A stretch of DNA of 40,247 nucleotides, from the NCBI GenBank assembly GCA_946546925.1, contig CAMNOS010000010.1, positions 1 to 40,247 of the forward strand, read 5' to 3'. Positions 6,998 through 15,384 of this stretch are shown here, piece after piece. This stretch comes from an uncultured Butyrivibrio sp. GTDB lineage: Bacteria; Bacillota; Clostridia; Lachnospirales; Lachnospiraceae. The notes below the pieces were generated by a model. It made no database searches. It was not told the origin of the DNA and saw nothing but the letters and a program-made list of their open reading frames with translations. Position numbers and translations under genes: made by a program. How positions within the stretch are numbered: the stretch's first letter is position 1; every line of letters starts with the position of its first letter.

Positions 6998-8536
6998 TCA
7001 ATACGCCCCCTTCTTTACAACTCTTGCAGCCTCTTCCTGTATGTTTCTGTCATAAGAAAGTACAGGTTCAGTATCCCTGCCACGTATCCTTCTGTCTATG
7101 TAGTTGCGGGTAATGCGGACCACAAGAGGTGTAAGCATCAGTATTCCCACAAGGTTCGGTATCATCATAAATCCGTTAAAGGTATCTGAAATGTCCCAGG
7201 CAAGCGAAGGTTCAAGGACAGCTCCAAGAACGATGATCAGTATGAACAGTACTCTGTAAAGCTTGGCCCAGAACACTCCGAAGAGGTACTCAACCACCTT
7301 GGAACCGTAGTAGGACCAGCAGACTACCGTTGTAAAGGCAAACAGTGTCACTGCCATGACTACAAAGATTTCACCCGGATATCCCAGTGTATCGCCGAAG
7401 ACCTTGGCCACCAGAGTGGCATCATCAGTTCCTGCAGCAACCGCGCCGCTCTCAAGGTCGATAGCACCTGAGCTTAAGACGACAAACGCAGTCATGGTAC
7501 AGATCACGATGGTATCAAGAAACACCTCTGCAATTCCCCACAGCCCCTGCTTGACGGGTTCTCTTGCACAGGAATTGACGTGAGCCATAACAGAGGAGCC
7601 AAGCCCCGCCTCATTGGAGAAAACACCCCTTTTGCACCCGCTTTTTATGGTGTTCATGGCCACCTGCACAGCAGTACCTGCAGCACCTCCCCGAAGTGCA
7701 TCAGGCCCCAGGGCGAATCTGAATATCGAAGCTGCAACAGCCGGGAGCATCTTAACATGAAAGATGATGACAACCAGGCACCCGGCAATATAGACAGCAG
7801 ACATCACCGGGATGATCTTTTCCGAAAAATAAGAAAGACGCCTGAATCCGCCCATGATGATAACAGCGCCTGCCAGCATTAAAGCGACGCCTATCCCCAG
7901 ATCAACCATGGATGCCCCGGCAAAGGTCCCCATGTCAATGCCCTCAAAAAACGTCGCATGGACATTTAGCGTGATCTTGTTAATCTGTCCCAGATTGCCG
8001 ATACCGAATGATGCAAATATGGTAAATACACAGAACATCACCGCCAGTACTTTCCCCAGCCTTTTCGTGCTCTTTTTTGCCCCAAGTCCGTCTTCGAGAT
8101 AATACATTGCACCACCTGACCAGGCTCCTTCCTGATTCCTTCTCCTGTAATAGATGCCAAGGACATTCTCAGAGAACTTGATCATCATTCCCAGTATGGC
8201 TGCGATCCACATCCAGAAAACCGCGCCCGGACCGCCTATGCATATGGCTGTAGACACTCCGGCAATATTGCCGGTTCCTATAGTGGAAGCCATGGCAGTG
8301 CAGAAAGCCCTGAACTGCGATATCGCGCCGGCATCGTTGATGACTCTGCCCTCGCCCTTAACACTTCCAAAGGTATTCTTCCACCAGTGCCCCCCATGTC
8401 TTATCTGAAATGCTCCCAAAGAAACCATGCAGACAAGTCCGGTTCCCAGAAGCAGTATGAGACCAAAGGTTCCCCAGACAAAAGAATTCAGCGAACTATT
8501 TACTTTTTCAACAACCCGAAATAAAGATTCGATCAT
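6998..8536 (-). CDS. Alanine/glycine:cation symporter (AGCS/AlsT family)
   Basis: Polytopic membrane protein with TGNIAGVSTAICIGGPGAVFWMW, GVFSNEAGLGSSVMAH. Start codon overlaps the upstream stop by 4 nt (ATGA, 8533-8536). Confidence 0.93.
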   Translation of the reverse strand: MIESLFRVVEKVNSSLNSFVWGTFGLILLLGTGLVCMVSLGAFQIRHGGHWWKNTFGSVKGEGRVINDAGAISQFRAFCTAMASTIGTGNIAGVSTAICIGGPGAVFWMWIAAILGMMIKFSENVLGIYYRRRNQEGAWSGGAMYYLEDGLGAKKSTKRLGKVLAVMFCVFTIFASFGIGNLGQINKITLNVHATFFEGIDMGTFAGASMVDLGIGVALMLAGAVIIMGGFRRLSYFSEKIIPVMSAVYIAGCLVVIIFHVKMLPAVAASIFRFALGPDALRGGAAGTAVQVAMNTIKSGCKRGVFSNEAGLGSSVMAHVNSCAREPVKQGLWGIAEVFLDTIVICTMTAFVVLSSGAIDLESGAVAAGTDDATLVAKVFGDTLGYPGEIFVVMAVTLFAFTTVVCWSYYGSKVVEYLFGVFWAKLYRVLFILIIVLGAVLEPSLAWDISDTFNGFMMIPNLVGILMLTPLVVRITRNYIDRRIRGRDTEPVLSYDRNIQEEAARVVKKGAY

Positions 8537-11500
8537 TCTTCATCAAGCCTCTGCAATATCCCGCTGTAATCAAAACCATCTGCCAGTTTCTTAATATCTT
8601 CATACTTCTTAAGGTGCTTATCGGGAACTGCATAATCAGACAATTCCTTCAGAGCAGCTTCTATGACATCTGAGTCCATATCATCCGCGCCTTTTGCAAC
8701 CGCCTCATAAACCCTCCTTATCAGGTCATCATCTGCAACCGGCAGGTCCTCTGCCCCGTCCCTTGCGCTGTCTTTTTCCGCATACAAAGGAGCCAGGATC
8801 TCCTTATATTCAAGGAAGTGCTCCATGCAGCTTTGATGGTGCTCTCTGATAAAGTCATAATCCCCGGTCTTGCCTGCCGTTTCCAGCTCTCTGGCCTCAT
8901 CCGATACAGACAGTGCACCGATAAGCCTTGCGGAACTCTTCAAGGCATGTACTTTTATCGTGTAGTCTTTCCAGTTCTCATTGTCATAAAATCCCTGTAT
9001 TTCCTCTGCCTTTTCGTCGATCGCTTCATAGAACAGCTTAAGCACAACGGCAAAGGACTCCGCCGAACCACTGTTTTCTATCCCTGTCTGATAGTCAATT
9101 CCCTCAATGTTCTCATACCAGGCGCCCTGTGAGGAAACCGCACCGTCTTTGGATCCTTCCGAAAGACCTCTGCCAGCGGACTGTCTGTTCTCATCTGCGC
9201 TGTCAGATGCGCCGCTGTCTCCGGTTCTGTTCATATCACGAAGTTCCGAATCGGTGACAGGGAGGATGGAGGAAATATTAAAGAACTTGTTACCTTTTAC
9301 AAAGTACAGTATTCCGAAAGCTCCGGGACCGCAGTTTGATGCAACGGCGGCGGAAGCTTTCTGGAAGATTACCCGCTCAAAATATGCAATCTTACTGATC
9401 TCTTCCTTAACCCAGAGGAGAGTTTCCTCCGGTACATCCACGTAGGTGATAAATGCCACCTCAGAGTCCGGAATGATGTCCACAGGAAAGGCCTTTCTGA
9501 TGTACTTGCGATATGCATGTTTCCTGTCACCCATCCATATGCCGCCTATCATCGACCGGTCATTGCTGAATATAATTCCGGGTCTTAGATCAAGCGCGCC
9601 CGCTATGGCATTTACCCTTCTGCTCACAAGGCCTTTTTTGGCCATGAACTCAGTGGTGTCCATTACAAAGCTGCACCTTAACCTCTTTTTCACCGACTCC
9701 AGCTCAGACACCATCTGCTCGACGGAAATGTCCTGCTGCGCCAGCTTGCACGCTATCAGTGTAAGTATGCCCATGGCACTTGATACACATTCCGAGTTTA
9801 TAACGGATACGCTTTCAAATGACCTTGATGCCTCCAGCGCTCTGTTGTAGTCCTCGCTCAGACTTGTTGAGAGAGCAATATATATCAGATGTCTTGCGTT
9901 CTTTAGATTCTTAGCAAAAAAGTCCCTGTATTCCACTACGCTTGGCGGGGAAGAAACAGCATTTTTGCCGCTCTTAATGTACCTTAAAAGTTCATCCGAC
10001 TCCATCTGGTACGTATCCTTGAACTCTCCCTCCTCCGTGATGATCTTAAACGGGAGTATCGGAAGATACGGGTTATTCACTATCTGATCGGGCATATCAC
10101 ACATACTGCTCGTGGTGATGACAAAAGGAATCCTCTTCCTGTAGCTGTCCAGAGTATCAAACTCCCTGCTCATCTGCTCGGAATTGTTCTTAAGAAGAAT
10201 CTTGTCAACTGAAATGTGGTTGATAAGCGCGTTCTCCAGCTGTTCTCCGGAAACAGGCTTTACCAGATACCCGTCAAAGCCGGAGCGCATGTAGAACTCG
10301 CGGTTTTCAGAGCCGGCATTGGCCGTGAGCACAATGACAGGTGTTGTATTGTTGAGACCTCCCGTCTGTCTGCGCAGCAGCTCAAGGCACTTTATACCGT
10401 CCATCTCGGGCATGAGGTGATCCATGAGAACAGCATCATATTTGGTACTCAGCGTCCGCTCCAGTGCCTCCTTGCCGCTCTTTACAGTATCAATACGCAT
10501 TCCAGTCTGCGACAGAAGTCTCTTTTCCACATCCAGATTGATCTCGTTGTCATCAACAATGAGCACACTTGCTTCAGGCGCAGAAAACCTGCTCTCATAG
10601 GATGATTTTCTGGCACTTCCGTAATTCTGAATATGTAGATCTCCGATTTCTGTGGCATCAGCAATGCTCTGCTTCAGGACAACGTTAAAGGTAGAGCCCT
10701 CTCCGTACACACTGTTTACTGTAATATCGCCGCCCATCAGGTTTACAAGCTGCCTGACTATACTAAGTCCAAGGCCTGTCCCTTCTATGTGACGGTTCTT
10801 TTCCTCATCCACACGCTTGAATGCATCAAAAAGATACGGAAGGGTATCATTCTTAATGCCTATTCCGGTGTCAGTGACGCTGAACCTCAGAAGAACTGTG
10901 CCCTCTTCCACGACCTCACTCTCTAAGTGAAGTCCCACCTTGCCTTCTCTTGTATATTTCACGGCGTTGTTAAGAAGGTTTATGAGTATCTGCTTTATCC
11001 TGACCTCATCGCCGTACAACACCGCAGGGACATTCGGATCGACGCTGACATCGAGCTCAAGCCCCTTCTCCTGTGCCCTTATCCATATCATGCCAACTAT
11101 CTCGGAAAGAAGCTCTGCCACGGAGTAGTCCTCCGAAACCAGGTCCATGCTTCCGGCTTCTATCTTGGAAAAATCGAGGATGTCGTTGATCAGGGCAAGA
11201 AGCATCTTACCGGAACCTGCTATACCGTTGGCATCCTTTACAATCTCCTCAGTTGCGTCAGGGTCCCTTAAGATCAGCTCGTTAAGCCCCAGTATGGAGT
11301 TGATGGGTGTCCTGATCTCATGGCTCATGCTGGAAAAGAATCTGTTCTGAGCGCGGTTGAGCTCCTCAGCCCTGTCCGCCTCTTTTTTGGCTATCATATT
11401 CTCTATCTTAAAAAGCCTGTTCTGGAAGATGACCATGACAAGGCACACTATTCCAACCAGTATCATGGATATGAAGGAGTCCACGAAGAACATGCTCCTT

Positions 11501-11967
11501 GAATGCTTAAATACCAGTTCAGGGTAGTAGTATGCAGCAAGATAACAAACCGTAGTCATAATGAAGAGAAGTACAAGCATTACCGTGCGCCATCTGCCTG
11601 ACAGAACAAGACCGGCGTAAAGAAATGCAAATATAAACCATAGGGCACCGCCGCCCTCTACACCTCCGCCGAAGAAAAATATGGCGGGGAGGATCAGAAA
11701 GATCAGCCCTATGATCACCAGCCTTACCGCTATCTCGACCCTGTTAAAATAAATCCCCACGTAGGTAAGCACGGGAACAATGATGAGAGTAGCAATGAGC
11801 GTTGCTATCTCAACAATGCTCTCGCCAAAGATGATGTCACATATCAGCGCTGTAATAACCGCCAGCGAGCTTATAAAAGTCAGCAGCACAAAGACACGGT
11901 CCGCAAAATTTCTCTTCGGATCCTTGATAAGACTGACTGTATTTTTTATGATCCTTATCAGCCTCAT
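8533..11967 (-). CDS. Membrane hybrid histidine kinase: TM region-HisKA-HATPase-REC-DegV-Hpt
   Basis: [19 protein letters not shown]-box; [31 protein letters not shown]...[13 protein letters not shown]...LVKP; DegV-like [16 protein letters not shown]...[14 protein letters not shown]...[16 protein letters not shown]...[33 protein letters not shown]...[13 protein letters not shown]; Hpt [14 protein letters not shown]. Confidence 0.9.
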
Positions 11968-14015
11968 TTGCCATCACCTCCCCCGGTCTTTCTGATCTTC
12001 GGAAGCAAACGAGCCATTACTCTTTCAAATTCATTTATGTTGATAGGCTTTCCAACAAATCCGTCAAATCCCTCTCTTATAAACATCTCTTTTGCCCCGG
12101 ATACCACATTTGCAGTCAGTGCGACAAACACGGTTCCGTGCTCGGGAACCATCCCTCTTGTCTTGAGAATTCTCATTGCCTCGACGCCATCCATCTCCGG
12201 CATCATATGATCCATGAAAATGACATCATACCGCTCCTTGAGGCACATTTCTATTGCCTGTTTTCCGCTTCCGGCTGTTTCTGTAACAATGCCGTAATCT
12301 TTGAACAGACCGCAGGCAACCACCAGGTTCATAGGCTCATCATCCACCACAAGAGCCCTTATTCCCGCAAGGTCCGGCCTCTCGACACGATCCGCAAGCT
12401 CCAAATTTCCTGCATTACTGCCCTCATTGATGACGCTGATCACAGGATAGGCATAAAGAGGTTTGGGCATGACAATCACCTTGCTGCCATCTCCTGTCTT
12501 AAAGCCCTCCGACGCAGACACCGCCACCACAACGTCGTTCGTGCTGATCTCATCAAAGAATCCGGCATTATCCAGATACTCTTCCTCACCCATAAAAATG
12601 TATTTAACACTGAGCTTTTCCATAAGGCTCTTAACTTCGCCTATACTGTCAGCCTGATACAGCGGCACACGCAATCCCGCAGCCAGGTTTAAAGCCATGG
12701 TCCTGTAAAAATCGCGAAGCTTCGGAATCTTGTACTTATCAGGTCTTACATGGAAAAGGATATCGCCATCACAAAAGCTCCTGAGCTTAAGGCACGGCGT
12801 GGAGTCAACCACCCTCTGCGGTATCGTGATCTTCACAACAGTTCCTTCACCTCTTGTACTCTCAAGTTTTACAAAGCCTCCCATACTGTGGACAAAGCCG
12901 TATACTATTGAAAGCCCAAGACCTACGCCTCCGGAACTTCTGTCCCTTCTTTTGTTGGCCTGATACAGCCCGAGAGAGGCCATATAGATGTCCTTGCGGC
13001 TCATTCCGCTGCCGGTATCCTTAACTTCAATGCACAGATTCACTCCGTAGTCCTTATTCTCGGTATAGACCCTTAAAAGTATTCCTCCGTGTCTGGTGAA
13101 TTTAACTGCGTTGGAAAGGACATGTCTGAATATCTTATGTATCTTTTTTATATCGCCTCTCATCACAGAGGGGACTGCCGCGTCAATATCTACCACAAGC
13201 TCAAGCTCGTCATTGTCGTGATTCATCCGGAAGCTTTTTACCACGTCCCTGATGATCCTGGTGCTTGAATAATCCTCTTCCTCCAGGAAAACATCTCCCG
13301 ACTTGACCTCAGTGTAATCCTGTATATCATCTATCTGTCCGGTAAGCCTTAGGCCCGCCTCTTTTATCGCATATGCCTCGTCGAACTGTCCCTTCTTTAT
13401 CAGAAGATCAGACATTCCGCTCACCACATTGACCGGAGTTCGCAGCTCATGCGAAATATTTGAGAGGAAATCATCCACGTTATTGGCATTGGCTTCAAGG
13501 AGTCTGTCTTTTTCCTTCGCAGACTCCATCAGCTCCCTTCTTATCTGTATTACTCTTATGCTTGAGAGATAGATAAAGAACATGACGATCACATGCAGAA
13601 TGATTCTTGAAACAGACAGACGGTCAGACCACAGATTGTCTTTCCGATGAATATAAAAGAGCTGGACAATGAGTATTACATAGTACTCCAGCATAAACAG
13701 ATTCATCATGTAAATATGATCAAGGAATGAAAACGCAAAAAGAGCCAGTGCCACTATCGCTACCGAGTCAAAAAGGCTGGTGGCGTGGATTCCATGGAAA
13801 AGAACCGTGAACATGGTAAATACACAGTAGTATACTTCCCTTATATCCTCGGAGGGACTTCCGGTGATGTGCATGATCCAGATAGATACCGTTCCAATGA
13901 TGATAAGTGGTGGCACCCAGAATTCCCATCCCATAAGAATGCTTTCTATTATAAGTCCCAAACACGAAAGACTTATAAGCGTGATAATAAACTGGTTTAT
14001 TTTCGATCTTTCCAT
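11964..14015 (-). CDS. Membrane hybrid histidine kinase with degenerate receiver-like segment and C-terminal intact REC
   Basis: TM N-terminus; FLSNISHELRTPVNVVSGMSDLL; GVGLGLSIVYGFVHSMGG; C-terminal REC ALVVDDEPMNLVVACG...VIFMDHMMPEMDGVEAM...GFVGKP. ATGA overlap with the next gene at 11964-11967. Confidence 0.93.
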   Translation of the reverse strand: MERSKINQFIITLISLSCLGLIIESILMGWEFWVPPLIIIGTVSIWIMHITGSPSEDIREVYYCVFTMFTVLFHGIHATSLFDSVAIVALALFAFSFLDHIYMMNLFMLEYYVILIVQLFYIHRKDNLWSDRLSVSRIILHVIVMFFIYLSSIRVIQIRRELMESAKEKDRLLEANANNVDDFLSNISHELRTPVNVVSGMSDLLIKKGQFDEAYAIKEAGLRLTGQIDDIQDYTEVKSGDVFLEEEDYSSTRIIRDVVKSFRMNHDNDELELVVDIDAAVPSVMRGDIKKIHKIFRHVLSNAVKFTRHGGILLRVYTENKDYGVNLCIEVKDTGSGMSRKDIYMASLGLYQANKRRDRSSGGVGLGLSIVYGFVHSMGGFVKLESTRGEGTVVKITIPQRVVDSTPCLKLRSFCDGDILFHVRPDKYKIPKLRDFYRTMALNLAAGLRVPLYQADSIGEVKSLMEKLSVKYIFMGEEEYLDNAGFFDEISTNDVVVAVSASEGFKTGDGSKVIVMPKPLYAYPVISVINEGSNAGNLELADRVERPDLAGIRALVVDDEPMNLVVACGLFKDYGIVTETAGSGKQAIEMCLKERYDVIFMDHMMPEMDGVEAMRILKTRGMVPEHGTVFVALTANVVSGAKEMFIREGFDGFVGKPININEFERVMARLLPKIRKTGGGDGK

Positions 14016-14058: not shown

Positions 14059-15384
14059 TCAGCACTCGTCCATGACGTATTCCACTTCGCACCATTCAGA
14101 TTCCGGACAGTTCTTCCACTCTTCCATAATACGGTTTACAACTCCGTCAATGTTTGTCTCATCCAGCATTGACAGTACCGCCAGATATTCATTGGCTTTG
14201 TTCTTCATAACGATATCGCTCCTGCTGAGGTTCTTTTTCAGATGCTCGCCGAAGGCGTTCATTATGTTGTCCAAAGACACCTCGTTCTCATTTTGAGGCG
14301 ACAGCAGGAACAAAACCTTCATGGCCTTGCAGCCATACTTTTTGTTGAACCTGATGAGAAAGTGATATACAGCCGAAAAAGACTCAATGCCAAGCACAAG
14401 GGCCTGTCTGCCCTCGTTCCTCTCCTCAAGGATCTTGGATATGCGCTCCATTTCTCCAACGGCCGAAAGCCCGTCCTCTTCTGATGTTTTCTCTCCGCTA
14501 TATACACAGCAGCAGTGCTTTCCGTTTTCTTTTGCTTTGTACAAAGACTCATCTGCAAGCCCAAACAGATCCTCATATACCCTGCCGTATTCGGGAACCA
14601 TTACAGCTCCCGCAGATATACCAAGGGGAACACCATGGTCTGCTCCCATGAGCCTTATGGCCATCTCCGCGAGCTGGTCATTGAGGCGCGATGTCAGAAG
14701 ACATGCAGCATCCTCTTCCTCCATTCCTGTCAGAAAAGCCAGGAACTCATCTCCTCCGATCCTGCATACCAGGTCCACGTTTCGGGTATTGTTCCTCATA
14801 ATGTCAGCAAATGCCACAAGAACATTGTCTCCCATCTCGTGTCCAAACAGATCATTGACCAGTTTAAAATTATCCAGGTCAAGAATCGTAAGAGCTCCGT
14901 TCATCCTGCTGCACATGTCAGTGACCTTCTCAATGCCGCTGGCCTTATTGAGAAGTCCTGTAAGCTTATCAATAGTCGCATTTTCCGTGAGTATTTCTAT
15001 TTTTCTGCTGTTCTGTATTGTGTTCTGTATACGCCTTATAAGCAGATCTTTGTTGAAGGGTTTGTGGATATAGTCCGAGGCTCCAACCCCTAGCCCCCGA
15101 TGCTCCGTCTCGTCGTCAGTATCCCCCGTGAGGAAGATGACCGGAGTCTCAAGTCTTCCCATGGCACTCTCCTGCCTGCGCAGTGCATCCAGAGTCTCAA
15201 AGCCATCCATCTCGGGCATCACAACGTCAAGAAGTATCAGATCCGGATTATTTTTCTCCATAAATCGGAGCAGATCCGGGCCAGACCTAAGGCAGCTTAT
15301 CTTTAAATCTTCAGAACCAAGAAGAGTCTTGGCACTTGTAAGGCTCAGTACTTCATCATCAACAACAACAATCCAGTTACCCAC
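14059..15384 (-). CDS. Response regulator with diguanylate cyclase domain (REC-GGDEF) plus degenerate GGDEF-like C-terminal domain
   Basis: REC WIVVVDDEVLSL...LILLDVVMPEMDG...YIHKPF; GGDEF domain LTGLLNKASG...DLDNFKLVNDLFGHEMGD...RNVDLVCRIGGDEFLAF with RxxD I-site spacing; C-terminal ~140 aa lacks the GGDEF motif. Confidence 0.93.
   Translation of the reverse strand: MGNWIVVVDDEVLSLTSAKTLLGSEDLKISCLRSGPDLLRFMEKNNPDLILLDVVMPEMDGFETLDALRRQESAMGRLETPVIFLTGDTDDETEHRGLGVGASDYIHKPFNKDLLIRRIQNTIQNSRKIEILTENATIDKLTGLLNKASGIEKVTDMCSRMNGALTILDLDNFKLVNDLFGHEMGDNVLVAFADIMRNNTRNVDLVCRIGGDEFLAFLTGMEEEDAACLLTSRLNDQLAEMAIRLMGADHGVPLGISAGAVMVPEYGRVYEDLFGLADESLYKAKENGKHCCCVYSGEKTSEEDGLSAVGEMERISKILEERNEGRQALVLGIESFSAVYHFLIRFNKKYGCKAMKVLFLLSPQNENEVSLDNIMNAFGEHLKKNLSRSDIVMKNKANEYLAVLSMLDETNIDGVVNRIMEEWKNCPESEWCEVEYVMDEC

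Follow-up and report, generated by a model that had tools for sequence, protein, structure and literature searches.

The window analyzed here is a stretch of 40,247 nucleotides from an uncultured Butyrivibrio sp. (GenBank assembly GCA_946546925.1, contig CAMNOS010000010.1). On its reverse strand it carries the gene of a hybrid histidine kinase with a DegV domain between its receiver (REC) and histidine phosphotransfer (Hpt) domains, and directly upstream the gene of a second hybrid kinase without Hpt domain (Table 1). DegV proteins are carriers which hand fatty acids to the kinase FakA, and many of them are without an assigned role. The comparisons described below suggest that the DegV kinase is one half of a widespread, apparently undescribed sensor-kinase pair with one shared relay domain. 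For fusions of DegV with a histidine kinase, no description was found in the open-access literature, subscription papers and domain-architecture databases being outside the scope of this search; one report only places DegV next to hemolysin III genes (PMC3146951).

Table 1. Features of the DegV kinase locus in the window
Feature	Residues	Position	Strand	Evidence
DegV hybrid kinase, type I, 1144 amino acids, transmembrane-HisKA-HATPase-REC-DegV-Hpt		8533..11967	(-)	single open reading frame
N-terminal membrane region	~20-188	11404..11910	(-)	hydropathy
HisKA, phosphoacceptor His216	206-272	11152..11352	(-)	Pfam 2e-17
HATPase_c	319-433	10669..11013	(-)	Pfam 8e-27
Receiver (Response_reg), phosphoacceptor Asp516	468-581	10225..10566	(-)	Pfam 8e-25
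DegV (PF02645)	615-889	9301..10125	(-)	Pfam 7.9e-34, 118 bits, cut-off 27
Leu780, position of FakB2 Arg170 (catalysis, latch)	780	9628..9630	(-)	
Ile-Trp-Met hydrophobic patch, position of FakB2 Lys200-x-Arg202 (FakA docking, membrane)	810-812	9532..9540	(-)	
Asn-Cys of NCGPG, position of FakB2 His266-Thr267; signature of kinase-associated DegV	878-879	9331..9336	(-)	
Hpt, phosphoacceptor His1007	975-1036	8860..9045	(-)	Pfam 1e-5
Partner hybrid kinase, 683 amino acids, transmembrane-HisKA-HATPase-REC, without Hpt		11964..14015	(-)	Pfam; 4-base overlap with DegV kinase
REC-GGDEF response regulator, likely diguanylate cyclase, candidate relay output		14059..15384	(-)	Pfam; co-occurrence
Na+:alanine symporter family protein		6998..8536	(-)	4-base overlap with DegV kinase

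Domain architecture and predicted structure of the DegV kinase

All five Pfam domains of the kinase pass the curated cut-offs, in the order HisKA, HATPase_c, Response_reg, DegV and Hpt. Thereby, the order proposed in an earlier note, which had read a membrane region followed by HisKA, HATPase, REC, DegV and Hpt from a single frame of 1144 amino acids, is borne out. The DegV-like segment was also recognized correctly, since besides Pfam the NCBIfam model TIGR00762 matches it (4e-39) and a sequence search of the window protein against solved structures (PDB) returns 1pzx, 2dt8, 4x9x and FakB1/B2; the DNA bounds given for it (9298-10134) were right within a few residues. The residues required for a phosphorelay are present, i.e., the HisKA His, the N and G motifs of the HATPase, Asp and Lys of the REC domain, and the Hpt His. 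For the N-terminal membrane region, Pfam yielded no sensor family above cut-off. In its HisKA-HATPase-REC-Hpt core the protein resembles unorthodox hybrid kinases of the BarA/TorS type (NCBIfam TIGR02956 and NF008318, both below their equivalog cut-offs), but it differs from these by the DegV domain between REC and Hpt, by a near-constant second kinase and by having no known periplasmic sensor.

According to an AlphaFold (AF2) model based on an alignment of 64 sequences (predicted local distance difference test 88.5, predicted template modeling score (pTM) 0.86), the DegV domain of the window keeps the two-domain DegV/FakB-like fold. Foldseek matched it to 1pzx (E 1.8e-24, template modeling (TM) score 0.85), and 4x9x, 5uto and others were also matched (TM 0.80-0.85). 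The DegV-family structures among these top matches are described mostly as fatty-acid- or lipid-binding.

Downstream of the Hpt domain, about 100 residues (1046-1144; window 8533-8830) gave no match in Pfam. By eye, they look like the tail at the C-terminus of a different Hpt protein, at locus L047 (compared loci are labeled L with a number).

Partner kinases and number of Hpt domains per pair

A membrane hybrid kinase is encoded directly upstream and on the same strand at 137 of 144 distinct DegV-kinase loci. The two genes overlap by 4 bases in 84 loci and by 1 base in 14. Among the seven loci without a counted partner, several have a partner gene that is broken, split or located at a contig edge, while L183 and L046 appear partnerless.

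According to an Hpt model derived from the compared proteins, 92 pairs carry the Hpt domain solely on the DegV kinase (type I) and 42 solely on the partner (type II). No pair has it on both kinases, and three pairs have it on neither. Because the types had been assigned with our own model, the test was repeated with Pfam. Hpt was then matched in 38/42 DegV kinases and 0/42 partners of type I, and in 34/42 partners and 0/42 DegV kinases of type II; the Pfam DegV domain was matched in 42/42 DegV kinases of either type. As to the three pairs without Hpt, at L102 an Hpt domain is encoded by the adjacent overlapping frame, where the contig ends, at L152 two DegV kinases stand behind a single Hpt-bearing partner, and at L193 a REC-Hpt gene lies downstream. 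In type I DegV kinases, the HisKA His is present in 41/42, N330 and D366 of the HATPase as well as the Hpt His in 42/42, and Asp516 and Lys570 of the REC domain are conserved. Across the four sets (DegV kinases and partners of both types), almost every member has intact catalytic and phosphoacceptor residues, the exception being the Hpt His of some type II partners (see below). As judged from the genes, both the pairing and the count of two hybrid kinases per single Hpt domain are established; the near-constant partner and the single-Hpt rule were absent from the earlier note.

A related arrangement is known from Pseudomonas aeruginosa, where the hybrid kinase LadS has no Hpt domain and depends on that of GacS (PMC4866733). 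By gene content, one Hpt domain for two hybrid kinases is common to both systems. In contrast to LadS/GacS, the genes of the DegV pairs are adjacent and usually overlap, the Hpt domain can be on either kinase, and a DegV module is present.

Residue exchanges in kinase-associated DegV domains

For analysis of functional residues, 166 fused DegVs were compared with 33 stand-alone DegVs, taken from these and related genomes, using FakB2 positions. At the position of His266, fused DegVs have Asn in 148/166 and His in 2/166, whereas 22 His and six Tyr were found in the 28 readable stand-alone proteins. The earlier note was right that the motif reads SNCGPG, without the usual His; Asn878 aligns with FakB2 His266. 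A basic residue at position 200, and likewise at 202, is found in only 1/166 fused DegVs vs 32/33 stand-alone ones; in the fused domains the residue is hydrophobic in 164/166 (position 200) and 147/166 (position 202). Arg at position 170 is present in 41/166 fused and 33/33 stand-alone DegVs. Retained in the fused domains are Ser93 (138/166) and Thr/Ser61 (150/166). The window DegV keeps both as Ser704 and Ser672, and this is compatible with the predicted binding of an acyl chain.

In FakB1, Arg173 and Arg205, corresponding to FakB2 Arg170 and Arg202, are reported to be completely conserved and essential, being required for binding of FakA, for contact with the membrane and for catalysis (PMC8892158); the window DegV has Leu780 and Met812 instead. 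The doubt about FakA-type chemistry expressed in the earlier note was thus justified, and such chemistry is very unlikely because not only the His but also the arginines essential in FakB are lost. From the carboxylate network of FakB1 (Thr62-Ser95-Ser171-His270), kinase-associated DegVs mostly retain the first two Ser/Thr, and the His is mostly exchanged for Asn. With Staphylococcus aureus FakB1/FakB2 they share the sequence family (PF02645), the two-domain fold and the Ser93 and Thr/Ser61 positions. They differ by being fused to or located beside hybrid kinases, by the loss of the equivalents of Arg170, Arg202, Lys200 and His266, and by the NCG signature and the hydrophobic patch. Another DegV protein, FakB4 of Streptococcus pyogenes, is not used for incorporation of exogenous fatty acids (PMC10138225), but it is a stand-alone protein for which a kinase link is not described.

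The same NCG signature and hydrophobic patch occur in unfused DegVs encoded beside an HK-REC-Hpt kinase (HK, histidine kinase; L184, L185, L234-L236), whereas the nearest unfused DegVs encoded away from such kinases (L240-L245) retain HCG and the basic pair. At L044, an unfused HCG copy happens to follow a fused pair and retains the FakB residues. In a quick tree the kinase-associated DegVs form a single clade (Shimodaira-Hasegawa-like approximate likelihood ratio test 100). In our reading, one DegV lineage has switched its partner, with a kinase taking the place of FakA; this lineage is tied to the signaling kinase by fusion or gene order, and its FakA-docking surface was exchanged for another. 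Of the six DegV genes in the window genome, a draft of 260 contigs with 80.6% completeness, two are fused to kinases and four stand alone, and an ordinary FakA gene adjoins one of the latter; the Fak role is therefore filled elsewhere.

The placement of DegV is variable: after REC, before Hpt, at the N-terminus, with Hpt only, or as a gene of its own. In the 42 type II pairs it is C-terminal on its kinase, with the Hpt domain on the partner. At L176, L182 and L191 it is at the kinase N-terminus, each time with a partner of 683-686 amino acids upstream, and at L179 it shares a chain with Hpt only. L234, L235 and L236 are three-gene sets of an HK-REC-Hpt kinase, an unfused NCG-type DegV and a REC-GGDEF protein. 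Because the position of DegV is modular, a mechanism in which it must lie between REC and Hpt is disfavored. The idea that DegV gates the transfer from REC to Hpt by lying between them, put forward in the earlier note, finds no support as a generality, given the C-terminal DegVs of type II and the N-terminal and separately encoded ones.

Distribution and selection

DegV-kinase fusions were found in at least 70 of 396 sampled Lachnospiraceae genomes (counted by hand among the matches listed, open frames of at least 480 amino acids). In an order-wide sample, fusions were seen only in Lachnospiraceae and in two genomes from a single further family (f17), and in a phylum-wide sample in Lachnospiraceae only. 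Hosts identified by a scan of genome collections with a 16-row alignment include Butyrivibrio isolates (Butyrivibrio sp. MC2021, NC2007, XPD2006 and VCD2006) and many rumen assemblies, and the fusion is at the identical position in scores of independently assembled genomes.

In close orthologs the DegV domain has 82% identity and a median ratio of nonsynonymous to synonymous substitution rates (dN/dS) of 0.087. For comparison, the ratio is 0.045 in REC, 0.106 in Hpt and 0.14 in the membrane region, and it rises to 0.34 in the linker that follows DegV; all these ratios are rough since distant pairs are near saturation at synonymous sites. By these ratios, the DegV domain is under purifying selection. 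An assembly or gene-fusion accident without function might be suspected from the draft state of the window genome. However, the same architecture is present in scores of genomes including isolates, and the dN/dS of DegV (~0.09) is far below that of the linker. Chance, assembly chimera and frameshift artefact were rejected on these grounds, and the accident is refuted.

Proposed mechanism and alternative explanations

We propose, with a probability of about 0.5, a phosphorelay of two kinases and one Hpt domain in which DegV was repurposed from a substrate carrier to a cytoplasmic receptor and a ligand alters the relay. Each kinase would autophosphorylate and pass the phosphate to its own REC domain, and both REC domains would feed the single Hpt domain that they share, analogous to the use of the GacS Hpt domain by LadS. 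This Hpt domain would then phosphorylate a receiver protein encoded nearby, putatively the REC-GGDEF protein in the window, and REC-GGDEF, REC-HD-GYP or small REC proteins elsewhere. Since the candidate receivers include REC-GGDEF and REC-HD-GYP proteins, the output would often be cyclic di-GMP (c-di-GMP). The receptor would have arisen from a FakB-like protein by keeping the fold and the carboxylate-holding Ser/Thr and losing the FakA-docking and catalytic residues, and the hydrophobic patch in place of the docking residues probably serves to dock DegV to the kinase. Binding of a ligand to DegV would thereby alter the relay, the most likely candidates being an acyl chain or another amphipathic molecule. 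The phosphate flow between the kinases, the docking of the patch, the acyl binding, the ligand and the direction of control are what we infer here. A wider claim, that Lachnospiraceae possess a class of such relays which senses intracellular acyl lipids via a FakB-derived receptor switched from FakA to a kinase partner, with c-di-GMP or receiver signaling as output, is tentative and leans towards doubtful.

Several observations weigh against the proposed relay. Loss of His266 leaves a gap in the carboxylate network, and the ligand may therefore be something other than a free fatty acid. The Hpt His is missing in 7/42 type II partners, five of which are the copies flanked by purine/pyrimidine (pur/pyr) genes in the genus of the window; some copies are therefore degenerate. 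The tree of the kinase cores needs only ~2 switches between types I and II; the large pair counts therefore are not independent events, and the rule has long been maintained. The relay outputs, c-di-GMP among them, are suggested by gene neighborhood, and an AlphaFold model of REC-DegV-Hpt gave no fixed domain arrangement (pTM 0.50).

Alternatively, a ligand-free DegV would serve as docking or dimerization scaffold that joins the two kinases, or REC and Hpt. The FakA-docking surface has become hydrophobic, docking to a partner protein is already a property of FakB proteins, the carboxylate network is incomplete, and the place of DegV in the chain varies. A pure scaffold, however, would need no pocket hydroxyls, and Ser93 and Thr/Ser61 are kept in most fused DegVs; moreover, the predicted fold matches lipid-bound structures, which makes a scaffold rather unlikely. 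Slightly less credible still is a receptor for something other than a fatty acid, e.g., a peptide, a nucleotide or an amino-acid derivative, tied to adjacent transporter or biosynthesis genes. The carboxylate site is altered by Asn in place of His266 and Cys in place of Thr267, and the neighbors comprise a Na+:alanine symporter, Bmp substrate-binding proteins, pur/pyr genes and carB, but they vary between copies and may be passengers, and the solved DegV structures among the top fold matches are for the most part described as binding fatty acids or lipids. Continued presentation of an acyl chain by DegV, to be phosphorylated by the histidine kinase in place of FakA or by FakA itself, is highly improbable. 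The fold is the same, a phosphate-handling partner is part of the same chain, and FakA is encoded in the genome; yet Arg170 is lost in 125/166, the basic residues 200 and 202 in 165/166 each and His266 in 164/166, and the arginines essential in FakB1 are among these.

If the proposed receptor function holds, DegV would be a signal receptor, and gut and rumen Lachnospiraceae could read their own lipid state. A lipid sensor would fit Butyrivibrio, because rumen members of this genus biohydrogenate unsaturated fatty acids and are poisoned by them. With an Hpt domain on either kinase, the pairs also offer a direct test case for shared-Hpt signaling between adjacent kinases.

Neighboring genes and candidate outputs

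REC-GGDEF genes were found near 22/92 type I pairs, and a protein of ~255 amino acids with a C-terminal receiver near 57/92; the latter is a candidate output or relay protein. Its N-terminal ~130 amino acids are without Pfam match (L119:10455-11213, L065:1322-2116, L196:6386-7156). Near type II pairs, REC-HD-GYP genes were detected in 14/42 and small REC genes in 11/42.

Of 68 close orthologs with sufficient DNA, 54 have the Na+:alanine symporter gene downstream at a distance of no more than 2.6 kb. A function tied to this symporter was rejected, as there is no symporter near the paralogs. At L119:7907-8872, a DUF6976 protein is encoded between the DegV kinase and the symporter, and several other orthologs have genes of the same length there.

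Some DegV-kinase paralogs are located in pur/pyr gene clusters, and other neighbors are genes for Bmp substrate-binding proteins and carB. Purine/pyrimidine sensing as a general role was rejected, since the clusters hold only part of the paralogs, five of them with a degenerate Hpt domain. In the genus of the window, the type II pairs L042, L043, L047, L063 and L064 lie between genes for orotidine 5′-monophosphate decarboxylase and purE/purM (Pfam on L043), and their partner Hpt domains are without the phosphoacceptor His.

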